Shown here one piece after another: positions 10,824 through 50,184 of a stretch of 64,000 nucleotides of DNA. The DNA comes from Rhodotorula mucilaginosa. Taxonomy: Eukaryota; Basidiomycota; Microbotryomycetes; Sporidiobolales; Sporidiobolaceae. The translations under genes were made by a program, and so were the position numbers. The notes beneath the pieces are model-generated. The model saw only the letters and a list, made by a program, of their open reading frames with translations. It searched no databases and was not told the origin of the DNA. The stretch spans positions 248,001-312,000 of the forward strand of contig CP137872.1 of assembly GCA_034406715.1 (NCBI GenBank), in the 5' to 3' direction. Position 1 is the stretch's first letter, and each line of letters starts with the position of its first letter.

Positions 10824-13800
10824 TCAAGCCGGCGTGATCGTGATCGTCATGCTCGAAGGGAACGCAGTCGGCGGTCCGTCGCGCGCAAGGTAGACGTTGC
10901 ACTTGTTGTCGGCGCCGGCGACGCAACCGAGTTGGCCCGCCGGTCCGCGCGCGCGTTCGGGCGTCCCGAACGAGCAGAGCTGGGTCAAGATCGCGCACGC
11001 CATGACCGTGTTGAGCGACTGCCCTCCGCCTGTTCCCGGTGAAGAGTGGAGGGGGGTCAGCGGAGAAAACGCTCTCCCTCGACAGAAAAGCAGGAACTCA
11101 CGGCCGGCGAGGTTGCTGATGCGCTCGTTCATCGCGTAGACGTCCGACTTGCGACCGAGGTTGATCTTGTCCGGCTCGGGGAAGACTTGAGCGTCGCGGT
11201 TGACGGCGGCGGCGTCGATCCAGACGAGCTGACCGGCCTTGATCTCGCCGGCCGCAGCGAGGTGAACCGGCTTTTGGGCGCGACGAGCCGAACCGGCGAC
11301 GGCGGGGCGGAGGCGGAGCGCTTCCTGGACGAAGCGCTGCAGAGTCGAGGATCGTCAGCTTTCAGTCGGAGAAGGAGGGAAGGGAAGGAGTTCGGATTTA
11401 CCTGCATGGTGGCGACGTCGAGCAAGTTGTGCGCCTGGCGGGCGACCTTGCAGATGTCGTCGAGGGTCTTCTTGTTCTCCTCGCGGAGGTAAAAGTCGAT
11501 CACGCACGCTGCGTCTTTGAGTCGTTTGGCGGAGGAGGAGGTGATCAGCGGCGCGCCAAGTTTCGGAAAGGGCTCCCCTCGGAAAAGCAAAGAACTCACC
11601 AGAGACGGCCGTGACGAGGCGAATGGCAGCGATCGTGAGGCATCCGGCCACCTCGCTGATAGGGCGGTCCGTAGCGCGGAGAGCGCGGCCGCACGTCTTC
11701 CTCGCTTGCTCCGACATGACGACGCCTTGGCTCTCGATGCCGAACAAGTGCTTGATGTCGGTCAAGAGTTCGTGGATCGTGAACTGTTTCCACAAGAGCA
11801 TGTGAGCGAGCTGACAGAGAAGCCACTGAACGGATAGTGCGCCGACGCACAGGAGTTCCCTGAGACTGGAGGAGACGAGTTTCGATGACGGCGAGCAGCA
11901 TCTCGCTCGCCTTCATCGCCTTGTCGCGGAGCTTGAAGCCGAGGCCGGGGTCGAAGCTGTCCAGGGGAGAGGGCAGGCGTCAGTCTCATGGGAAGGTCAG
12001 CTTCGAAGAAGAGAAGGAGCCGAGACTGACTTGAGGTAAGCGAACGTCCAGCACTCGGTGAGCGCCTCGTAGAGCTGCTTCGACGTGAACAGGCCGAGCG
12101 GGTTCTCCTCCGACTTGAGCGGGATGCCAAACTCGTCCGCGATGAACTCGGTGACGACCGGCACGATCACGTCGGCGACGATGTCGACGGTGTGGTGAGC
12201 GGTCTTGGAAGGGCCCCAGGCGGTCGCGTCGAGGTGCTTCTTGACCAGCTTGGCGAGGTCCGGGTAGATCGCCGTCGACCACTGGCCCGAGTAGAACGTG
12301 GCGTCGATGACCTTGCTGAAGCTCTCGGACGACTTGGGCGACGTCGACAGCGAGAGGTAGTCGAGGAGGCCAGTTTCGTGCTTGCGGGTCATCTCGGCGA
12401 GCGCGGGACCGTAGACGTTCGAGAACGAGTCCGAGTCGGTGAAGACCCTCTCAGCCTCCTTGTACGACTTGACCTCGACCCAGCTCGTCGACTCGGCCGG
12501 AGGCGTAAAGTCGTACTTGTGGGCGATGCCGAGCTCGATCAAGATCTGCTTGTTGACCGCCGGCGTCGTGAACGGGAAGAGCGCGTAGACGCTGTTGTAC
12601 GTGTAGGCCTTGGGGAAGTGGCGCATGAGGAGCTTGCCGATCTGGCCGCCGAACGCGCCGTTCTCGTAGTCGGGCTGCAAGTCGCGGTAGTGGAACGACG
12701 TGACGCTGCCGGCGGTCGCCTCGTACGTGAACTTTGCCGCGAAGGGAGTCAGTACAAGGAAGTGACGGTCGCTTGGAACAGAGCACAATACTCACGAAAC
12801 GGTCGCCGCGAACGAGAGCAGCCGCGTCACTCAGGATCGCGCGCGAGATGGTGTAGCCTGGAGCGAGTCCGGAAGCGGGAGCGGACGGCTTCGGCTCCTC
12901 GCACATCAAGCCCGGGTAGAGCTCGAGGTTCTCGATGTCCTTGTAGAGGTGCTTCGCCGTGTTGGCGATCTCCGGGCTCGGGTTCCATTCCTCGAAGTTG
13001 TTGTACTTCTGGAGTCCGAGCATCTCGCGGAACCTGTCGGCGGACAGAGTGTGTCGCGGTCAGTAATGCTGCTCTGACCGAAGTCCGAGCCACCGAAGGA
13101 GGGAAGAAAGAGAACGTACTCATTGAGCGAAGCGCAGCGCCACTTGGTGCGGGCGGCGTCCATCCCGACGCAGTCGATGATGCGCATGACCTCCGGAATG
13201 CCTGTTGCGGGAAGGAACTGTCGTCAGGATCTTGCCGGATACGGTAGAGAATGGACCCTTTGAGAACTCACCGCGCGCCTTGAAAGCTCCCGCAACCCAC
13301 TCGGTCGCGTTCGTGAGCGTCGCGATGATGTCTTGGTCGCTGTGGAAAGAATGTTGCCGGTGTGAGCGACCGTCCTGCTTCGCTTGCTCCAAGTCGTGAG
13401 AAAAAAAAAACGCACCGGAACGGACCCGTCCCGTCTTTGCCGGTCCGCTTGAAGCCGCCAAAGGTAAACTTCCTCGGGTCGTCGCCGAGCTCCTTGTTCA
13501 TGCCGTCCCAGACCGCGCGAAGGTCATCCGGGGTCATCTAGAAAGGGAGTGTTGCGAAAGAAGTCAGTGAAGCCCGGGAAGTCACGAGGTCGGAAAAAGG
13601 AAGGCTCGCCTGGTCGAACGGGACCGACGTCCACTTGCGGACCTCGCCCTCGAGCCACTCGGTATCTTGGGCGCTGATGGCCATGTGCCAGCGGTAGAGG
13701 ATGTTGAACTCGGCCGAGACGTGGTTGCCCGTGCCCCTCGGAACCTGCCCGCCGATGAGCGACTTGATCTCGTCCGTCGGAACGAGCGACCACGTCGACG

Positions 13801-15263
13801 TCGTGCGGTTAACGTTCAGGATGACGCGGATGTAGTCCTGGAAGATGACCTCTTCGAACCAGAGGCAGTTGATGTTGCGCGCGAGGTTGAAGAGGGCGTG
13901 GTCCTGAAGGCGCTTCTCCTTGTCGTTGAGGCTATTCCACGGTTTGAACTGGCCGTTCTGGTTGACCTCGACGAGCTTCTTGGCGATCCAGTTGTGGTTG
14001 CGACTGAACACGAGGCCGAGAGCAACGGCGCCGGGCGACATGAGGAAGAGGCGGTTCGAGCTGAGGACGTCCGGGTAGATCTCGCCTTGGACGTGCGTGC
14101 GGATCTTGTCCTGCTCGGCCTGGTTGTTGCCGTAAATCGGCGACAGATCGAGGTACGAGCTCGCGTGGTTCATGTTGAGGTCCTCGTGGTCCGTGACGAA
14201 GATGCTGTGCGTGATCAGGACGGCCTACGTGCACGCGCGCACGATGAGAAGGATCAGCTCGGTCTGCACCAAAGTTCAGCTACCGAGCTCGATGTACGCA
14301 CCATAGCAAACAGCATCGACGAGATGCCCGAAGGGTGCGGGACAAACTTGTCGCGCCTCATGAGCGAGTCGAAGACGGTGGCGACATCGGGGAGATTCTC
14401 CGGGAACGGGTGCAAGTTCGGAGTCGTCCTGGCGTACGGCTGCCGGGCGGCGCCAAGCTCGGGGATGAACGGGTTGTTCTTCGATCCGTCCGCTTCGCGG
14501 TACTGGTACTGGCCGACGAGGGTCGCCGGCGGCTTGGGGATGTCGTCCCAGAGGACGCGGACTGGGTGGGAAAAGGGAACGGTGAGCTCGGCTGGACTCG
14601 GACTTCGGCGTGCGAAAGGGGTTGACTTACTGAAGAGGTTCTGGAGACTCGTCCCGACAGGCGAGTCGGGCGGGAGCGAGTACAGCAGGACGACGACTTT
14701 TTCGAGGAGCATGTTGCGGTCGTCCAGGCCGGGAGTCTTGCCCTCGACGCCAGCCTTGATCATCGAGATCGCGTCTTGTAGCGGCGAACGGCGTCGGGTG
14801 GTGAGCCGAGCGAGTCAGGCGAAATGCGGGCGAATGGCGTCGGGTGGTTAGCCGAGCGAGTCAAGCGAAGTGCGGACCACCCGCCGCCGAGTTTGCCACC
14901 GGACGAGCGGCCGGACCAAGCAAACGTACCACGCGCGAGAGTCTTGTGACTGATCTGCTCAAAGACGAGCTCGAGTTGACTCTTTCCGGCGTCGACCACC
15001 GACTCGACGGCCTTGACGGGCTCGGTATCGGCGAGAGCCATCGAGGCCATCTGCAACGCCTGAGAGCGCACGAGCGCATGTCAGACGGATTCGGACTCCA
15101 TGCAGTCACGTTCCGGAGTAAGTGTTAGACTCACAGTCGAAGCGGCAGCCTTGGCGCCGCCGAGGAGGCCGCGTTTCGAGGACGGCGACGGTGGCGCAGA
15201 CTGACGTTCTTCTTGGGGCTGACCAAAGACAGCAGGCGCCTTCGGGGGCGATGGAGTCGCCAT
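10824..15263 (-). CDS. Psi-factor-producing oxygenase / linoleate diol synthase-like (heme peroxidase + P450 domains)
   Basis: About 15 exons from the ATG at 15263 to the stop at 10824 give roughly 1,100 aa, the usual length of Ppo enzymes. The N-terminal cyclooxygenase-like heme peroxidase part contains LVGQYQYREADGSKNN, the distal-His region AVLITHSIFVTDHEDLNMNH, and EFNILYRWHMAIS with the catalytic Tyr and proximal His spaced as in PpoA. The C-terminal P450 part has the ExxR motif in QEALRLRP, but the heme-binding loop reads LAGRGGQSLNTV, with no cysteine at the thiolate position. Family members dioxygenate linoleic or oleic acid, and the P450 half isomerises the hydroperoxide to diols. 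Here only the dioxygenase step looks secure. Intron 13538-13609 uses a GC donor, and the intron around 14780-14935 carries a 46-bp tandem duplication. Confidence 0.87.
14784..14875. repeat. 46-bp tandem duplication inside a Ppo intron
   Basis: Two adjacent 46-bp units (14784-14829 and 14830-14875) match at all but about five positions. Each contains a GGCGTCGGGTGGT core followed by AGCCGAGCGAGTCA. They lie in the intron after the second Ppo coding exon, next to the CTACAAG acceptor. Confidence 0.8.
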
Positions 15264-25527: not shown

Positions 25528-25714
25528 CGTATTCGGACTTGCGATTACTACGCAAAATCGGTCATTCTTCCGGACAGCTAGTAGCGAATCAATGCTTCAT
25601 GCGAAAAGTTTTCGTTGCCGAAGGGCCGCGTGAAAGCGAGCCGGTGGATCTCAAATTTATGAGCCGCGACCTTCCACCCTAGAGCTCGGAGCGTGGCTAC
25701 AAGCACCCATACGC

Positions 25715-27241
25715 ATGGTCCGACTGCGTGTGGCGCCGTCCTGGCCGCTGGCGAGCCTGCGCTCCGTCTCACGACGCTCGTTCGCCTCCTCGACGTCGAC
25801 GACTTTTCCGGAAGCCGCGGCTGCTCCGCCCAAAGGCCCAGCGAGCGCGCCAGGAGTCGTCGGATCGGCGCCAGAGCTCTCGCGGCATCTCTTGATCCAC
25901 ACGCCGCACCCGACCGCGACCTGGCCGTCGCACCTGCATGCGACTTCGCCGCTCGCGAAACTCCTGCAGGATAAATGGCAGACGCAGCCAGAACTCGCCA
26001 AGCTTGGCTTCAACTTCACCGACGGTGGTCAAGGAACGGTCGCGCAAGCCTGGGACCCCAGTCGGACCAAGTTTGACGACCCGCCGGCGGATGCTGCAGT
26101 CGAGTGCGTCTTGCTGTCCCCCTTCTACCCGTCTCCTTTCCAGCTCGGATTTGTTTCGCTGACTGGGACAATCTGGTACAGACGCTACTCGGCGGTGATC
26201 TACCCCGACTTTGTCGAACTCCCGTCCTTCTCCATCGACGATCTGCCCGCTTTCGAAAAAGTCCTCGCGGAGCTTCCCGCTGCGAGTGCGCCATTACCCA
26301 GCACGACGAGCGGAGACGCCACAACACTACAACGGACGCACATCTTTGTCTGCACTCACCGCACCCGAGACTGCCGCTGCGGCGACATCGGCGAGCCGCT
26401 GTACGACGCGCTCTTGCACGAGATCAAGCGGCGAAAGTTGGGTGGGGAGCTCAAGTCGGGGACGGACGGCGTGCGGATAGCTCGGGTGGCGCACATCGGA
26501 GGGCACAAATGGGCTGGGAACGCCCTTGTATACCGGAGTGACGGCGTCGGCGACTGGTGCGTGTTTCGCCCCCTTGCTCAACTCGCAGAGGCAGTCGGAT
26601 TTTGAGTGAAGCTCATAGACCCCACCGCATACAGGTACGGCCTCCTCCGCGCCGAAGACGCCCCCAAGCTGCTCGACTACGCCACTTCGCCTTCCTCCCT
26701 CCCGTGGTTCTCGCGATGGCGCGGTCGCCTCGGACTCTCGTCCGATCAGGTTCGAGCGGCGTACGCTTCTCGGCCCGCGGCGGAAGCCGAGAACAAACTC
26801 GACGAGCCGCGGCACGAGTTGGGGGACAGCGTCGAGCTCGTGTTTAAGACCTTTGAAGGCGAGGAGCGCCGCGTCAGTGGCTACGAAGGCGAGAGCGTCA
26901 TGGTCCGTTTCTCCTCCCCTCGCAACAGACACGTGTGGGACGACATACTGAAACCTGATTGTACGTTCTCGCAGGAAACCGCTCGCCGGCACGAGCTCCC
27001 CTCGATCCTCGCCACGTGCGGCGGGCACTGCGAATGCGCAACTTGCCACGTCCTGATCCCGCCAGCCGCATCCGCCGGGGGCGACCCGCCCCTGCCCGAA
27101 ATGACGGACGAAGAGGACGAGCAGCTCGAGTTTGCGATCGGCGCGACGGACGACTCGCGCCTGGCTTGTCAGTTGCCCGTCACAAAAGAGCTCGGCAAAT
27201 GGATCGCGAAGGGCGGACGGATACAGCTTCCTCGATACTGA
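25715..27241 (+). CDS. Mitochondrial Aim32-like [2Fe-2S] protein fused to an adrenodoxin-type ferredoxin
   Basis: Three exons (25715-26556, 26635-26902, 26975-27241) join in phase to 458 aa. The N-terminus (MVRLRVAPSWPLASLRSVSR) looks like a mitochondrial presequence. Residues about 80-300 form the thioredoxin-like Apd1/Aim32 (sucrase/ferredoxin-like) domain. Its cluster ligands are visible as C213 and C222 (FVCTHRTRDCRCG) and H260 and H264 (HIGGHKWAGN), the Cys2-His2 pattern of that family. After the GDWYGLL block, residues about 345-458 form a plant/adrenodoxin-type [2Fe-2S] ferredoxin with C385, C391, C394 (TCGGHCECATC) and C435 (DDSRLACQLP). Both phases and the in-family GDW/YGLL junction across intron 1 argue for one protein. 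A role in mitochondrial redox or Fe-S metabolism is inferred. Confidence 0.85.
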
Positions 27242-41992: not shown

Positions 41993-42287
41993 GCTCCTTT
42001 GTCGGCGCAAACTGAGCAAAAGAGGGTCGTGCAGAGGCGGACGAGCGAAAGACGGAGTTGCGCACGTGAAAAGAGTTTTTCGGTCGTTGGCGAAAAAAGA
42101 GCTCACCAGGTTCGAGCCGTTGTCTTCGAGTCTATAGATTGTAGTTAAAGTACTGTGCGGGTCTATAGAATCTGCAAACGTCCTCGACTCGAATCTGACT
42201 GTGCCACGATTTTGCGAGGTCGAGGTTCCCTCCTTTGACCTCACCACGGCCGCCACTGGGAGCGGGCTGACCGAGTACGCTACCGTG

Positions 42288-43196
42288 ATGGTCAAGAAGC
42301 GCAACGCGGCTGTGGAGCCCACCGCGGCTACGCCAGTCCAGACGCGCGAGTCGTTGCAGAGGATCAGCTACCTCATGCAAGCCTCGGTCCTCCTTCGCTC
42401 GCTCGTCAGTCCAGAGCTCGGAGCGGAACAGCAGCAGACTCCTACAGACCGACACGACGATCCAGCTGCAGCGACAAACGCCCAATCTGCGGCAATTCAG
42501 GGTGCTCGAGACGATGCACCGCTCGCTTCAGCCAACACAGCGCCAGGGGCGACGCGAAGGGCGGCACAGCCTCAGCCCGGCAAGGAGGGCAGGCGCAAGC
42601 GTCCCAGAAGGGCGAGCACGCAGGCACTCGAGCCGGTTTCGGATCACCTCGCAAGTCAGATGAGCTCCGTCGCGAAAAAAGCAACCGTCCGCATGTGAGT
42701 CGCTGGACACACCCGCACGCCCGAACAATGGACTGCGCTGACGAGATATCGCGTGTGCACAGGGATCCGGCCCTGAAGCGAGCCGTCTGCAGGTGCTGCG
42801 ATGCGGCGCTAATTCCAGGCTTGACGTCCACAGTCCGTGTCAAGCGTGAGTCGCCTGCAAGCCCCGTTGACTGCGTATGTGAGGGCTAAAACCACTCTCA
42901 AAACGACAGCATCAAAGGCACACGCGCATCTTCTCGTCTACACTTGTCTCGGATGCCATGCTCAGCGACGCATCCCGGCGACGCCGCACACGCCGCAGGA
43001 GCCTTCGACAGTTGCCGCCAACAACGAGGACTTCGCCAAGTCACAACAGGACAACGGATCTAGCTCGACATCGCTCACTAAGCGAGAGAGGCGAGAGAAG
43101 CGGCAAGCTCGGCCGCCGGTCTTTTTCGAGCGAACCGATCACGTCGTCGTGCGCGGGTCGGTCGTCCTCTCTCGGGACGAATATCGCGAGTCGTAA
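42288..43196 (+). CDS. RPR2: RNase P protein subunit Rpr2/Rpp21
   Basis: Three exons (42288-42694, 42763-42845, 42910-43196) join in phase to 258 aa. The conserved parts are the helical ESLQRISYLMQASVLLRSLV, then DPALKRAVCRCCDAALIPG with TSTVRVK, and HLLVYTCLGCHAQRRIPA. The two Cys pairs (CRCC region and CLGC) form the zinc ribbon of the Rpr2/Rpp21/Snm1 family, which binds the RNA of RNase P and matures tRNA 5' ends. A polar insert of about 80 residues separates the helix from the zinc ribbon, and the C-terminus is basic (TKRERREKRQAR). It is convergent with the MobA-MoeA gene, with 45 bp between stops. Confidence 0.88.
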
Positions 43197-43241: not shown

Positions 43242-45529
43242 TCAGAACGGTCGCCAGAACACCTTGTCCTTTCCTCCTCCATTCGCAGCCCGGTCTGCCC
43301 GGATCCACGCGCCCGCGCCGATCAAACTCCCGAGCGCGCACGGCCCGGTCCTCCTCCCTGCCGAGAATATTCCTCGGAGAGTCGGCACACCCTGATCCGA
43401 CACCGGTAGAGCTGCAAAGGTCGACATGCCGGGTTTCAGGCGTTCGAGCCACTCTTGCCACGACGCGTTCTGCTCCACCTCCTCCTCCGAAAAGGGACCG
43501 AGATCGAGTTCCGACCAGCCCTCGCCGCCAGCACGTGATGACAACCCGTCGAGGATCGCGGCGCCGAACGATTGCATGCAGACGGCGCTGGCCATCGGAT
43601 TCCCGGGCAGGCTCAAGACGGGCGTGTTGCTCGCTCTGTGGAGGGACAACATGACCGGTCCGCCTGGCCGGATCGCGACGCCGTGGAAGAGCTCGTCCAG
43701 CTCGAGCGAAGCCAAGACGGCCGGCGTGTGGTCTGCGGAACCGAGCGAGACGCCCGCGACGGTGATGATGAGGTCGAAGGACTCGGACTCGAGCGCGGCG
43801 TCGAGGGAGGTGCGCAAGGCAGTCACAGAATCGCCGGCGGACGCGAGGAGAACGGGTTCGCAGCCGCGCGAGACGAGGGTCGCCTGCAGGAACGGCGTGA
43901 TGCAATCGATGACTTGACCCGTCTCGACGCGAGTGCCGCCCACAAAGTCGTTAAAGGGCACGACCTCCTTGCCCGTCGTCAAGATGGCGACTCGTCGCTC
44001 AATCTCGCGTCTCGGTCTCGCCGACGTGGTTGCTTGAACGTTCGTGATCCCGGCCGCTGCGAGTAGCATGACGTGCTCGGGTGTGATCACTTCTCCCGCT
44101 CGGAGGAGGAGGTCTCCCGCACGAAACTGTTCCCCTTGTTGTCGGATGTGCTGTCCGGACTTGACTGGCGCGGCGAAACCGACCAGTCCTCGGCCGAGCA
44201 AATCGGAGGGCAAAACATCTTCCACCTTGATGACGGCGTCGAAGGCGCCGGAGGGGAGGATCGCCCCGGTCATGACCTCCCAGCAGCCGTCTTGCGCGGG
44301 CGAACCGGTCGGTGGAGGCGCTTCTCCGGCCAGAATCCGACCCAAGATTGGAAGGAAGATCGGCGAATGGGGGGACGCATTGGCGAGACGCTTCGCGTTC
44401 ACGGCAAAACCGTCCATCGCCGAATTGTCTTCGAGGGGATGGGGCAGCACGGCATGAATGTCTTGCTCGGTGGCTTGGCCGACGCCTGCGAGGAGCGAGC
44501 TCGTGTTGTCCTCCTCCGGTGGCTGCAAGCCCATTCGGTATGCGGCGTCGCCAGTCGACGGTCTTCGTTTTCGAGGTTCGGGTAACGGCAAACTATGTGC
44601 AATCGCAATGGCAGCTTCAAATGGTAGAGACTTGTATGTGGTTCGCGAGAACGCTCGGCGGAGTCCTCCTTCCGGATTCTTTATTTGCTTGGGCGGGTTG
44701 CACTTTTCGCCAAACGGTACCTTGGAACGGCGAACAAGACATAGAAGGCGTCAACAAGCATGCTTACAACGTCATGGCTCAACTGGGGCCGCGCTCACGC
44801 TCTCTGAGAGCCCCAGCCGCCGTTGAACAGCTCGCCACTCGTCGGGGGTGTCGGCGTCGGTGATCCAATCCTCGGTCGGCACCTCGACTCCGCCCGCGCC
44901 TGGCCCGATCTTGCCGCCCCAGACATCCTTCGCCGCTCGACACGGTCCGCTCTTCCCCGCTCGACAGTTGCTCCGGAGCTGCGCGAGCGCGGTCGGCGTC
45001 CAGATGGAAAACAACGGTTCGGGATTGCCGTCGTCGCTATGCAGGTACAGCGACACGGGCGAATCTGTCAAATGCGCCTTCAAGAGGTGGAGGATAGAGT
45101 CGCGACTGATGAAAGGCAAGTCGACGGCCAAGATGAGCCAGGTTGCGTCCGATTTTGATGTCGCCGCTGTCAGGATTCCCGCCGCGGGCCCGATGTCGCC
45201 ATTCGTTTCCGGATCGTCAAGGACCGCTTGCACTCCCTGCATTCCTTCCGTTCAGCTTAGACAAAGTTGTCCGGTAGGCAGGAGCTACGCACCTCTGGTA
45301 GGGAAAGATCCGTCATTTGTTCTCTGCGCCCGCTCACAAAGATCCCTCCGGGGAATATCCCCTCGTCCGCTAGCTCGAGGAGCGTGTCGATATGATGTTG
45401 CCAAAGGGGCTTCCCGCTGCGTGGATGCGGAAGAAGGTGCTTCGGCTGCCCCATCCGGGTCGAGCGTCCGCCGAGCAGGAGCAAGACTGCCTGTCCGGGC
45501 ACAGGCGCCGCGAGGGCTAAAGTCGTCAT
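43242..45529 (-). CDS. MobA-like nucleotidyltransferase fused to MoeA (Mo insertase)
   Basis: Three exons (45529-45293, 45236-44799, 44720-43242), every junction in phase 0, give 717 aa. Residues 1-225 are MobA/MocA-like: AVLLLLGGRSTRMGQPKHLL (nucleotide-binding loop), SGKPLWQHHIDTL, DIGPAAGIL, LAVDLPF (metal-binding Asp) and ITDADTPDEW. Residues 250-717 are a complete MoeA: YKSLPFEAAIAIAHSLPLPE, DNSAMDGFAV at 323-329, the VAILTTGKEVV strand, GVSLGSADHTP and VLSLPGNPMASAV. MobA attaches GMP to molybdopterin to make MGD; MoeA inserts molybdate. The MoeA frame has no ATG before residue 288 of this model, while the preceding exon ends in a good GTGAGC donor and the 78-bp intron has a TTGAC branch-like site and an AAG acceptor. 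This supports one fused protein. It shares a 302-bp divergent promoter with the oxidoreductase. Confidence 0.82.
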
Positions 45530-45831
45530 GGCTGACCTCGGTCGAGTCTCTGACAGGAGCAGAGGTACGCCTGCGTGTCCAAGGGCGCAATCCTGTACGA
45601 CCTGGGACCCCTTCTCGATGATGCGCTGTGCTCTCGCTCTTCTTCGGACTCCCCCACACAGCAACCAGATGTCCGATCCGGAATCGGGAGCCGCGGTGGA
45701 GAAGTTCGGCCGAGAGCTTCGCCTCTCAATTTGGAACCAGAGCAGCTGATGACCCCCTCTGACCTCGCGAAGCGACCGCTGTCTTCCAGACTGCTTCAGC
45801 AGCTAGCTGTCTGGCTCGGCTACAGCGCGCA
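45530..45831. promoter_or_regulatory. Divergent promoter region, MobA-MoeA / molybdenum oxidoreductase
   Basis: 302 bp between the two opposing start codons (45529 and 45832). Shared control of cofactor synthesis and enzyme is inferred from this arrangement. I see no recognisable GATA, TATA or palindromic operator that I would defend. Confidence 0.5.
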
Positions 45832-48800
45832 ATGCCCAAGCTAAAGATCGAGCCGCTCGAGCACTATGGGAGTTGTGTTCAGATCTCGCGAAACGCTGCC
45901 GAACGGGATCAGATTTGGGGCGAAAGGCAGCCTTTTCACGGCGACGACAAGGCGTGGGAACCGCGTGTCGACTCGTGCTATGTCGAGTGAGTCGGTGGTC
46001 CTCCCCCCTGCGATTCCCGCGACCTGAGTAACTGACTACTCTTTGGAACAGACCGCCAGAGTCGATCGAATCTTGGGTGCAGTCTGCATGCGTACTGTAC
46101 GCTCTCTCGAGATCTTCTTTTCTACCCGTACTGCAGCAAATAAACGTATCTGTGCCACAGCTGCTCGAACGGTTGTGCGATGGACGTCGGTGTCAAAGAC
46201 GGCAAGGTTGTCGCGGTGAAAGGTCGGGCAGACGATCGCGTGAACAAAGGTCGCTTGGGACCGAAAGGGTGAGCGCAATCATGCGCAGTCAGCGAGTCTT
46301 AGCTGACCTCCTCGAGCGGCGCAGGATGTATGGCTGGGTCAGTATGCGCGCCGAAGACCGCCTCACGAAACCGGTGAGCCGGTGCAGGACCAAGCGCAAT
46401 CGTTTGTGCCAGCGTTCGGAGCACGCTCTTCTGACAATATGCTGATAAACGACACTTTCCCGATCAGCTCATTCGGAACAAGGAGACGGGGAACCTCGAG
46501 CCGGCGACATGGGATGAAGCGATGGACCTGATCGTCAAGAAGTCGAAAGAACTCATTGAGCACTACACGCCGCATTCGATCGCGTTCTACACTAGCGGTC
46601 AACTCTTTTTGGAAGAGTACCACACGCTGGCGATGATCGGAAAGGGCGGTCTCGGGTATGCGAAGCTTCGTCCTTTATTCGCTCGCCCGCACTTTTCGTC
46701 TGACTTTGCCGCACGCTCACAGAACGCTGCACATGGACGGCAACACCCGACTCTGCACAGCTACCGCAGCCGCCTCGATGCGAGAGAGCTTTGGTTGCGA
46801 CTCGCAGCCTGGTTCCTACACCGACTTCGTACGTGAACGCTCGCAATTTCCACGGGATCTTCTCCTCCCGCTGACTAGCTACGTTCCTTCTCTCAGGACC
46901 ACTGCGATACCTTGTTCATGGTCGGCCACAACATGGCGGCGACTCAGACGGTCCTTTGGTCCCGCATCCTCGACCGACTGGCCGGACCGAAACCGCCTTT
47001 CCTGATCGTCATGGACCCGCGGCGGACTTCGGTCGGACACGCCGCCGTCGAGAACGGCGGTATCCATCTGGAGCTCAGAGCGGGTACCAACCTCGCCCTC
47101 CTGAATGGTATCCTCAAGATCCTGCTCGAGAAGAACGAGTTCCACAACGCCGAGTTCATCGGTTCGTACGCATCTTTCACGCGAGATTTCGCCCCTGCTT
47201 ACACGAAAATGGCTTCCCTCAGACAAGCACACGATCGGGATCGATGCGCTTCGCGACACCGTGAAGGACTACGATGTTCAGCGCGTTTCCGAGATCACCA
47301 ACGTTCCGGTCGACCTCATCATCCGCGCGGCAGAAGCAATCGGACGCAGCGACAGACTCGTCAGCACCTGCCTCCAAGGTGTCTAGTGAGCTCTGCTTCC
47401 GTATTCGCTGTGCCGCATCGATCCGCTGTTGACAGTCTCGGAACTCTTTGACAGTCAGGCGAACCAGGCCACAGCCTCAGCGTGCGCGGTCAACAACATT
47501 CACCTTCTCAAGGGCGCCATCGGACGCGAAGGCGCCACCGTCTTCCAGTTCAACGGTCAACCAACCGCGCAGGTGAGTAGCTTTGATACGTCTCGCACCG
47601 GAAAAGTGTGCTCAAATCGTTTGCGCGTCTGCAGAACAATCGGGAATGCGGATGCAATGGCGAGTTCCCCGGTTTCCGCAACCCGAGCAACCCGCAACAC
47701 ATGCAAGACCTCGCGGATCACTGGAACATGTCGGTCTTTCAGCAGAGCCTTCTCACGTCCGTGGGATTGTCCTGACTTGCCTTCTCGTTCTCCTTTCTCA
47801 GCGACGTCAAGAAGCTTCCGCATTGGTCACAGCCGACACATATCATGAGTCTGCTCAAGTATATCGAGAACGGCTCTGTCAAGATGTTCTGGATTTCGGG
47901 GACCAAGTGAGTGGCTCTCCGCGCCGGATGCCGAGATTGACGGCGCGTGATTAACACTCGCTTCTGCCCGCAGTCCTGCCGTATCGATGCCGGAGCTCGC
48001 ACGCGTGCGGAAGAATCTCGCGAGCAAGGACCTGTTTGTGATCGCGCAAGACATTTTCCCGACCGAGACGACCGCGCTTGCCGACGTCGTCTTGCCGGCG
48101 GCACAGTGGTCCGAGAAGACGGGCACCTTCACGAACGTCGACCGGACCGTCCACCTCGCGCACAAGGCGGTTGATCCTCCGGGCGAGGCTTGGCCGGATC
48201 TGAAGATCTTCTCCGAATATGCTCACCGGATGGGTTTCAAGGACAAGGTGAGGCGAACTTCAGCTCTTTCCCCGCTCGCTCGAGTCTCACGCCCCGTCAT
48301 TGAACAGGACGGTGAACCGCTCATCAAATGGAGAAATGAGCCGGAAAAGGTCTTTGACCACTGGAAAGGGACGTCAAAGGTACGGAGATGCGTCCTTCAA
48401 CCTCTCTGAATCGACGCTAATTTTGCTTCGCACAGGGCCGCCCGGTCGACTATTCCGGCATGAGCTACGACAGTAAGTCTCTTTTCTTGTGCCTAAAGTG
48501 AGGAGGGAAGCTGATGACCTGCACCTGCAGAACTCACCGGCGGCAGCGGCGTGCAGTGGCCGTGCAACGAGCAATTCCCCGACGGCCGCGAACGCCTGTA
48601 CACGGACTGGATCTTCCCCACCACTCTCGCGGACGTCGAGTCGTACGGACACGACTTGTACACTGGCACGACGATCTCGCCCGAAGCCTACAAGGCGATG
48701 AATCCGAATGGTCGCGCGATCTTGAAAGCTTGCCATTTCTCGCCTCAAGACGAGTCGGCCGACGAGGACTACCCGTTCCTGCTCTTGACGGGTCGGGTCT

Positions 48801-50184
48801 TTGCGCAGTTCCACAGTACGATTTGCTCTCATGCGCCTCCTGCCTGCTCGTCATCGCTGACACCACCGGACAGCTCGCACGAAGACAGGCCGGTCGAAAG
48901 AGCTACACGACGCTGCGCCAGAAGCTTTCGTCCAGATCTCGACGGAGGACGCTCGCAAGCTCAACATCGACAATGGCGACATGGTCTTGGTCGAAGGTCG
49001 CCGTGGCAAGATCGAGGTGCCCGCTAAGATCGGCGAGATTGGCGTTGGCAATGTCTTCATCCCGTTCCACTACGGTTCGGCAGATCAGGAGGGCGGGGAC
49101 GGCCGGAAAATCAGATCTCGAGCTGCGAACGAGCTCACCGAAAGCTCGTGGGATTTCGTTTCCAAGCAGCCGGCTTTCAAGGTCTGTTCGCTCGTTTGCA
49201 CGCCTATAGCGTATCTCTCTGACCCTTCCCACTTGCAGTCCGGCGCAGTTCGCCTTACACGACTTGAGCCAGGAGTCCAAATCCACGCGCAGTCGCAGCA
49301 GTATGAAACGGAGCAGAAGAAGTCTCAAGCTGTCCGCTCGAACGGTGCAGGCAACCACGACCGGACGGAGCATCACCGCTACTTGCTCGATGCTATCGGA
49401 GAAGTAAGTCAAGGTATCTAGCCTCCAAGGAGGCCGGGAACCAGCTGACGAGGGTCGCTTTTCCAGTTTGAGGTCTTCAGTCGCGAGATCCTCGACTTGA
49501 TGAGCCAGCTCGCCAAGAAGTACTCTTCCGCGATGTATGTCCTTCGCGCGCCCGGTTCTTTCGCCTTGGATCGGTCTTGACGCAACCTGTATGTACCAAC
49601 AGGGAGATCTCGCACGGTCTGAAGCTGCACAAGAAGCTGTGCAAGGAGAACGTCGACAAGCTCCAGCCCTTTGTCGAGAAGTACAAAGACGACGAGCGCA
49701 ACGCAAAGGTTGACGTTGCCTCCCTTCGTGCTGCACTCTTCCCTGAGAACCGCAGAGAGTCCGGACCGTGAGTCTTGAGCTTGACGAGGTCTCTGGTTAG
49801 GACCTTCGCTGATTCGCTCGTCATGGCTCCGCAGGTACCAAACGATGATGGAGTATGTACTGGCCGTCGGATCAGCGCGCCAGAGCATCTGCTGATCTTT
49901 TACACGCGCTCTTTAGTCTTCAAGGTCTCGCCACGATGACGGCGCACCTGCTTGGCTGGCTCGCGGTTCTGAACCCGGCCTTGCAAGCGCTGCACGACGT
50001 TGACTTTGCCGAAGCGATCTCTCATGCCACCCGATCCTTCTCTATGCTCCGAGCGTGGTCAGAGTGCGAGATTCTTCTCTTCGTCTGCCGGCTCCAGAAT
50101 CAGCCACTGACGGTTCGACCTGCATGCAGAGACCACAACAAGGTGGCTGCCCCACAAACTCTTATCGTACCTGTAGTGTTGTAG
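45832..50184 (+). CDS. Molybdopterin oxidoreductase of the DMSO-reductase (bis-MGD) family, NapA/NarB-like
   Basis: 22 exons, all in phase, give 993 aa: 45832-45986, 46052-46096, 46161-46268, 46325-46373, 46468-46655, 46723-46828, 46897-47161, 47223-47385, 47455-47572, 47635-47729, 47802-47906, 47974-48247, 48308-48379, 48436-48472, 48531-48815, 48874-49181, 49239-49403, 49467-49534, 49603-49767, 49835-49852, 49917-50054, 50130-50184. The N-terminal Fe-S motif is CVLCSNGC (C65, C68, C72), but the fourth position reads GRLGPKG, Gly for Cys. The Mo-ligand loop is DGNTRLCTATAAA (C193), as in Nap/Nas-type enzymes. Further family blocks are ISGTNPAVSMPELARVR, AQDIFPTETTALADVVLPAA, GTFTNVDRTVHLA and the MGD-binding RAANELTESSWDFVSKQP. 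Residues 792-993 are a helical extension ending APQTLIVPVVL. No targeting signal is evident. The last intron is the least certain. Confidence 0.85.

Follow-up and report, generated by a model that had tools for sequence, protein, structure and literature searches.

A divergent gene pair of the red yeast Rhodotorula mucilaginosa and a candidate fungal system for the bis-molybdopterin guanine dinucleotide cofactor

The subject of this analysis is a divergent gene pair of Rhodotorula mucilaginosa (assembly GCA_034406715.1; 20.35 Mb in 19 contigs), which lies in a window of 64,000 nucleotides (C9:248001-312000, contig CP137872.1) inside a contig of 1.23 Mb. Both genes are intron-bearing and fungal, one encoding a fusion of MobA-like and MoeA domains and the other a molybdopterin oxidoreductase of the dimethyl sulfoxide (DMSO) reductase family, hereafter the enzyme. 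Spliced models bear out the original prediction, made from this DNA alone, that the two genes point away from each other with 302 bp between their ATG codons. On the minus strand, the fusion gene runs from an ATG at 45529 to a stop at 43242, and its introns, 45237-45292 (56 bp) and 44721-44798 (78 bp), are both GT-AG and keep the reading frame; on the plus strand, the enzyme gene runs from an ATG at 45832 to a stop at 50184 with 21 introns, every one GT-AG. The enzyme, previously put at 993 amino acids (aa), has 996, all 996 of them the same as in the deposited R. mucilaginosa protein JCM8115_005345 (P0001). For the enzyme, the Pfam, NCBIfam, solved-structure and homologue searches reported here used a 1018-aa model that retains the last intron and differs only near the C-terminus. 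In window coordinates, the features are:

43242..45529, minus strand: MobA-MoeA fusion gene, spliced model of 3 exons (45529-45293, 45236-44799, 44720-43242), 717 aa
44799..45529, minus strand: MobA-like part (exons 1-2), motifs LLGGRSTRMGQPK, GPAAG and AVDLP; NTP_transf_3
43242..44720, minus strand: MoeA part (exon 3), motifs DNSAMDG, TGA, GVSLGSAD and LPGNP; no MoeA_C match
45530..45831, no strand: intergenic region of 302 bp shared by the divergent starts, from the gene models
45832..50184, plus strand: DMSO-reductase-family enzyme gene, 22 exons, 996 aa, matching deposited P0001
46052..46268, plus strand: exons of the iron–sulfur (Fe-S) site, with Cys65 (46089), Cys68 (46162), Cys72 (46174) and, at the fourth ligand position, Gly100 (46258)
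46754..46756, plus strand: Cys193 of DGNTRLC, predicted molybdenum or tungsten (Mo/W) ligand, aligned to RLC of NapA (2jim/2NAP)
49371..50184, plus strand: C-terminal domain of about 160 aa, starting near residue 836; encoded in its own downstream frame at most prokaryotic loci

Since the enzyme family is prokaryotic according to reviews, a misassembly, a contaminant or a decayed relic has to be weighed, and the original prediction had itself allowed for a bacterial–fungal misassembly. We regard such an origin as very improbable. The 1.23-Mb contig carries fungal genes on two sides of the pair, Utp13 (29.7-32.5 kb) and DNA topoisomerase I (55.9 kb), which makes misassembly unlikely, and the 23 GT-AG introns, the conserved motifs, the presence of the pair in eight other assemblies and a separate fungal clade of the enzyme speak against all three possibilities; as far as sequence allows, misassembly is refuted. 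Nor is the fusion an artefact of gene modelling, since 16 further listed proteins of 611-737 aa (P0121, P0122, P0126-P0139) carry its same three Pfam domains.

On the enzyme, Molybdopterin (177.1 bits), Molydop_binding (87.5) and Molybdop_Fe4S4 (48.9) all exceed their curated Pfam cut-offs, and these are the domains by which the DMSO reductase (Mo/W-bisPGD) family is recognized. Its top solved-structure relative is NapA (2jim/2nap group; 389 bits over enzyme residues 58-754), whose RLC and GQP...R motifs are retained in the alignment, the Nap/Nas-like active-site motifs of the enzyme being Cys193 and NGQPTAQNNRE. The Nap/Nas type originally assigned thus stands as a likeness; we do not class the enzyme as a nitrate reductase, because it falls far short of the NCBIfam equivalogs for nitrate reductase and formate dehydrogenase (score/cut-off in bits: NasC 385/1100, NapA 336/904, NasA_Halo 350/1000, Fdh-alpha 468/666). 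Some deposited homologues are labelled “nitrate reductase” or “periplasmic nitrate reductase” by their source. Compared with NapA, NasC and NarB, the enzyme is alike in the three Pfam domains and in the RLC and GQP..RE motifs, and a NarB-like protein of Calothrix is 33% identical to it, but it scores far under the equivalog cut-offs, has Gly in place of the fourth Fe-S Cys, adds a C-terminal domain, and is encoded by a eukaryotic gene with 21 introns; a signal peptide, a further point of difference, was not noticed by eye, no prediction tool having been run. With uncharacterised prokaryotic molybdopterin oxidoreductases (from Actinomycetota, Bacteroidota, Pseudomonadota, Nitrospirota, Planctomycetota and others), the enzyme shares 46-61% identity, the GRLGPKG and DGNTRLC signatures and the C-terminal partner, whereas in those the C-terminal domain is a separate frame at 58 of 80 loci and some actinobacterial members have lost the Fe-S cysteines.

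Two other identities were rejected. A grouping with the 75-kDa subunit of complex I (NuoG), against which the original prediction was to be checked, is contradicted by an NCBIfam score of 114.6 against a cut-off of 470 bits and by solved complex I subunits that reach only 37-41 bits. The eukaryotic nitrate reductase/sulfite oxidase family is likewise set aside, since Pfam finds neither Oxidored_molyb nor Mo-co_dimer in the enzyme. A separate PF00384 gene sits on contig C11 of the same genome.

The predicted metal ligand, Cys193, aligns with the Cys of the NapA RLC motif, which we take to be the Mo ligand in NapA, and is unchanged in 73 of 73 aligned rows; a Ser ligand, guessed from the motif DSQPGSY, was rejected as the NapA alignment indicates Cys193. 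The Fe-S site, in contrast to the four-Cys [4Fe-4S] site of the Nap/Nas/Fdh-type subgroup, has three cysteines and a glycine. All 22 aligned homologues, fungal as well as prokaryotic, have Cys65, Cys68, Cys72, Gly100 and Cys193, and among the 73 rows the sole Fe-S departure is P0061, with a gap at Cys68. More widely (the best 120 matches were taken in each of three protein searches, out of 6818 for the enzyme and out of 201 and 404 for the others), three Cys and Gly occur in 109 of the best 120 of 6818 enzyme homologues. The exceptions comprise P0046, P0062, P0099 and P0109, without organism names, which read GRLGCKG and whose Cys one residue past the Gly could restore a fourth ligand; P0011, P0052 and P0113, which, like P0099 and P0109, start further in; and P0023, P0061, P0078 and P0098, irregular deposited models that are perhaps mis-spliced. 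At the 80 prokaryotic loci, an open reading frame (ORF) with the Mo-ligand motif was recovered in 77 (not L013, L053, L086), and three Cys and Gly are found in 65 of these. Eleven of the 12 non-matching ORFs were inspected (L056 was left out), and all are actinobacterial (L044, L051, L066, L068, L076, L077, L079, L082, L083, L085, L089): a pattern like SxLHSNGD replaces the three Cys while the Cys of DGNTRLC is kept, so that the cluster has probably been lost. Given three Cys and Gly in most homologues and the loss of cysteines in these eleven, the Fe-S site is, by its predicted ligands, reduced in the enzyme family and gone in one subgroup, and the Gly at the fourth Cys position is a new observation.

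A second peculiarity is the C-terminal domain. A profile built from 30 separate bacterial proteins matches 79 of the 80 prokaryotic loci (absent only from L053), fused in 21 and as a separate frame in 58, of which 57 lie 2.3-2.8 kb past the match start and one, L078, at 1.7 kb. Among the best 120 of 6818 homologues, the domain is present in 101 and fused in all 74 that bear fungal names; the 19 without it include no fungal name and are mostly short prokaryotic-type proteins, yet one protein lacking it, P0115 (759 aa, no name, probably truncated), falls on the fungal side of the 96-row tree described below. Judged by these profile matches, the enzyme has a nearly constant small partner domain, beside or within the prokaryotic enzyme, which is likewise a new observation; it may act as a scaffold, a chaperone or a redox partner. 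Four prokaryotic counterparts of the domain have no Pfam match at the respective cut-offs. A ferritin-like identity was rejected, the matches being sub-threshold (DUF2383 in one of the four proteins, E 9e-5, 23 bits against a cut-off of 30.8; DUF892 in another, E 0.015; YciE, E 0.37, ranked after designed proteins) and giving weak hints of a ferritin-like bundle.

The fusion, as predicted, joins MobA-like and MoeA domains in one protein, with MoeA_N at 115.9, NTP_transf_3 at 82.9 (cut-off 27) and MoCF_biosynth at 81.1 bits, all exceeding their cut-offs, and it is 65% identical over nearly its full length to P0121 of R. pacifica. The MobA part scores 47.6 bits with the NCBIfam MobA model and 31.4 with that of MocA. 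When solved structures are searched with a profile built from eight MobA parts of Sporidiobolales, E. coli MobA comes out on top (E 3.6e-5), with GlmU after it, and MobA entries make up the first six of the ten matches. MocA differs from MobA at the GG of the LLGG motif, and the MobA part has the same GG as E. coli MobA. An exon-wise search detected NTP_transf_3 nowhere else in the genome. The MoeA part matches E. coli MoeA at 106 bits, gephyrin at 73 and Cnx1 at 65.6 at most; MoeA_C (domain IV) has no Pfam match in the fusion at E 0.001 and is listed in none of the 16 fusion homologues. Fungal Cnx1 and gephyrin have the MoeA fold and Mo insertion in common with it, but Cnx1, encoded apart on contig C8, combines MogA with MoeA, and the pieced MoeA of that Cnx1-type gene is 28% identical to the fused one over 263 residues. 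The fused MoeA is on these comparisons a bacterial-type copy additional to the ordinary Cnx1. What was originally predicted as the cofactor step of this fungus is encoded as a MobA-like nucleotidyltransferase fused to MoeA, with the amendment that this MoeA is additional to a Cnx1-type gene, and a MoaA-type gene is present in this genome as well. A further MoCF_biosynth-domain gene lies at C2:818259-818459 (L005). E. coli MobA and MoeA consist of the same domains and act in consecutive pathway steps; bacterial fusions are MobB-MoeA and MoaC-MobA, whereas the yeast protein places MobA and then MoeA in one fungal chain, and no MobA-MoeA fusion model is among the listed NCBIfam matches.

Why a genome that retains a Cnx1-type gene should also hold a bacterial-type MoeA could be explained by a tungsten branch, in which the second MoeA inserts tungstate, the enzyme is a W-dependent protein with bis-molybdopterin guanine dinucleotide (bis-MGD), and the Cnx1 Mo pathway is kept separate. 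There is a precedent in Methylorubrum extorquens, for which five MoeA copies are reported, one of them tungsten-biased and feeding MobA (PMC13197769). With nitrate reductases as the top solved relatives of the enzyme, we consider this branch unlikely, if a little less so than the other functional alternatives below.

The enzyme occurs well beyond this yeast and beyond Pucciniomycotina. A molybdoenzyme in a fungal chromosome, as originally predicted, is indeed present, but among the best 120 of 6818 homologues 74 have fungal names, 2 bacterial names and 44 no name. The fungal names belong to Pucciniomycotina, Tremellomycetes (Naganishia, Filobasidium), the agaric Crassisporium, Taphrinomycotina (Saitoella), Pezizomycotina and the chytrid Rhizophlyctis (lineages were confirmed for five of these taxa); the named fungal homologues span Chytridiomycota, Ascomycota and Basidiomycota and gather in a single clade, separate from the sequences of many prokaryotic phyla. 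In a 96-row tree of 37 of the 74 named fungi, 25 unnamed proteins and 34 of the 80 prokaryotic loci, all 37 fungi and 8 unnamed rows lie on one side of a branch with a Shimodaira–Hasegawa-like approximate likelihood ratio (SH-aLRT) of 100. A tree with four outgroups, three of them on very long branches, gathers 13 fungi and 4 unnamed proteins in one clade (100) and leaves the deep prokaryotic order unresolved. In a 31-row tree with one outgroup on a very long branch, 8 fungi and 2 unnamed proteins, assigned to fungi, form one clade (100/99) within the prokaryotes and adjoin L014 and P0112 at 89/82. The contig that carries L014 is 4.6 kb long and was binned, perhaps wrongly, as that of a Methanomicrobiales archaeon. 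Read from these trees, the enzyme is one old fungal lineage, and with 37 named fungi on one side of a single branch, its acquisition looks ancient; a recent transfer into Rhodotorula was rejected as contradicted by the fungal clade of the 96-row tree. As for the gain from bacteria originally proposed, a prokaryotic source is the natural reading and is likely, but the placement of the fungi inside the prokaryotes is weakly supported, the deep forks standing at 94/88 and 89/82.

The pairing is conserved, as the original prediction would have it: enzyme and fusion have consecutive locus tags in all seven Sporidiobolales assemblies with a common tag prefix (JCM10296v2, JCM3770, JCM8097, JCM1840, JCM11641, JCM8547, JCM3775), and in an eighth, JCM10213, both proteins are on contigs of equal length and the tag versions differ. 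Outside this order, a deposited model of Monosporascus sp. GIB2 (P0102) joins the enzyme to MoeA, and that MoeA groups with the fusion MoeA at 97/95 on a long branch, which suggests that enzyme and second MoeA are adjacent in an ascomycete too. A MobA-like protein of Pyricularia oryzae (P0281), a species that also has an enzyme homologue (P0016), clusters with yeast MobA in a group of 16 rows (95/96) that includes eight unnamed proteins. Beside the prokaryotic enzymes, blastp at E 0.01 over flanks of up to 8 kb per side found no MobA-like ORF and one MoeA-like ORF, at L016.

What the enzyme acts on is suggested by its prokaryotic neighbours. Of the 80 prokaryotic loci, 15 have a gene for an HPP membrane protein (PF04982) close to the enzyme and 8 have one for a SLAC1-type anion channel (PF03595); L023, L019 and L030 are examples of one or the other, and one instance of each was checked individually. 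HPP was searched for in 15 prokaryotic genomes: 8 of the 12 with a locus HPP have no other in the genome, and of the three without one, two have HPP elsewhere and one has none. Judged informally, the association of HPP with the enzyme is hard to put down to chance. In cyanobacteria and chloroplasts, HPP proteins transport nitrite. These neighbours suggest an anion as substrate or product, and HPP together with the Nap/Nas-like motifs points to nitrate or a like oxyanion. The HPP genes of this yeast lie elsewhere, on contigs C1 and C7.

Our best reading of the locus is that the fusion assembles bis-MGD specifically for a cytosolic oxyanion reductase of the nitrate type, for which we infer the cofactor, the substrate and the location. 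We think it probable that the two genes encode a functional bis-MGD enzyme and the maker of its cofactor; that the substrate is an oxyanion of the nitrate type is a tentative proposal, rather less than an even chance. The bis-MGD module is favoured by the domains that exceed their cut-offs, NapA as best relative, the invariant Cys193, the adjacency of the pair and an NTP_transf_3 domain at this locus only, and further by the Monosporascus enzyme-MoeA model, the Pyricularia MobA-like protein, the MoaA- and Cnx1-type genes and the HPP and SLAC1 neighbours.

Several observations weigh against this reading. The enzyme scores under every NCBIfam cut-off of its own listed models, and so do both parts of the fusion, with the MobA part at 47.6 against an equivalog cut-off of 151.85 bits and the MoeA part at best at 202 against 534. 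The deposited Pyricularia P0281, perhaps mis-spliced, lacks the stretch that bears the expected catalytic Asp, and among the matches listed no other MobA-like protein from outside Sporidiobolales carries a species name. Scores this low for MobA would suit a fusion whose MobA-like part makes another product, be it a cytidine monophosphate (CMP) adduct as in MocA or nothing, with an enzyme that uses plain bis-molybdopterin (bis-MPT), the form that E. coli YdhV is reported to use (PMC9103625). The preference of the MobA part for the MobA over the MocA model, its leading matches among solved structures, its MobA-like GG and the dinucleotide-binding domain PF01568 of the enzyme nevertheless make this improbable.

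The nitrate side of the reading meets objections of its own. No classical nitrate operon appears among the 20 neighbouring prokaryotic ORFs scanned, 8 of which have no Pfam match. The genome of R. mucilaginosa JGTA-S1 is described as having no nitrite reductase and no nitrate transporter (PMC6476726), and another study reports that R. mucilaginosa CYJ03 lacks the nitrate pathway (PMC10662464). These published absences weaken a role in nitrate use, and they also speak against the idea that the enzyme is a bacterial-type assimilatory nitrate reductase that replaces or backs up the eukaryotic one. The Nap/Nas-like motifs and NapA as best solved match would fit such an enzyme. So would the outcome of exon-wise searches of the genome, which detected no eukaryotic nitrate reductase and found a single Oxidored_molyb/Mo-co_dimer gene, for a 433-aa sulfite-oxidase-like protein (C1:1764821-1767979; L011, L093). 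With that sole gene sulfite-oxidase-like, the nitrate reductase that PMC6476726 implies for R. mucilaginosa may be the enzyme described here. On the other side, PMC10662464 reports an ordinary nitrate pathway in 10 of 15 Rhodotorula strains. The Fer2_BFD domain is a mark of fungal nitrite reductase, and it has no match in this genome. On balance, we find the assimilatory role improbable.

For the preferred reading, a bis-MGD assembly protein with its client reductase, the following sequence of events can be envisaged. Molybdopterin (MPT) would come from the ordinary fungal pathway and be adenylated by the MogA domain of Cnx1, after which the MoeA domain of the fusion would insert molybdate. 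The resulting Mo-MPT would be handed to the tethered MobA domain, where two would be joined and two guanosine monophosphate (GMP) units added from guanosine triphosphate (GTP). The bis-MGD so formed would enter the apoenzyme, perhaps with the help of the C-terminal domain as a built-in scaffold, and the holoenzyme would most likely reduce nitrate or a related oxyanion in the cytosol, acting outside nitrogen assimilation in this yeast. In its fullest form, that of an ancient fungal bis-MGD system in at least three phyla with its own late cofactor branch (a second MoeA and MobA, fused in red yeasts and possibly tungsten-tuned), a three-Cys Fe-S site, an obligate partner domain and a reaction left unassigned, the proposal is one towards which we lean slightly. 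The original interpretation is partly supported: it appears right at its core, and the system older and wider than it supposed.

Elsewhere in the window are a Suc_Fer-like (sucrase/ferredoxin-like) gene (25634-26599, plus strand), a gene with an animal-type haem peroxidase domain (13541-14224, minus strand) and, at 42138-43196 on the plus strand, a gene whose product resembles, on visual inspection, an Rpr2-type zinc protein of RNase P; its first ORF has no Pfam match.

One recent review states of the dinucleotide cofactors that they “were only found in prokaryotes” (PMC9370521), and another holds the most diverse Mo/W family to be exclusive to prokaryotes, with eukaryotes having only some enzymes of the xanthine oxidase and sulfite oxidase families (PMC10609526). 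Both statements seem at odds with proteins deposited for many fungal species. A literature search on fungal bis-MGD, napA and MobA, with subscription journals mostly outside its reach, found no account of this fungal enzyme among the papers listed. Eukaryotes may possess a further type of molybdenum enzyme. If MGD were found in it, the account of eukaryotic molybdenum would change, genetically tractable fungi would become models for bis-MGD enzymes, and it would become possible to test what the unusual Fe-S site and the partner domain do.

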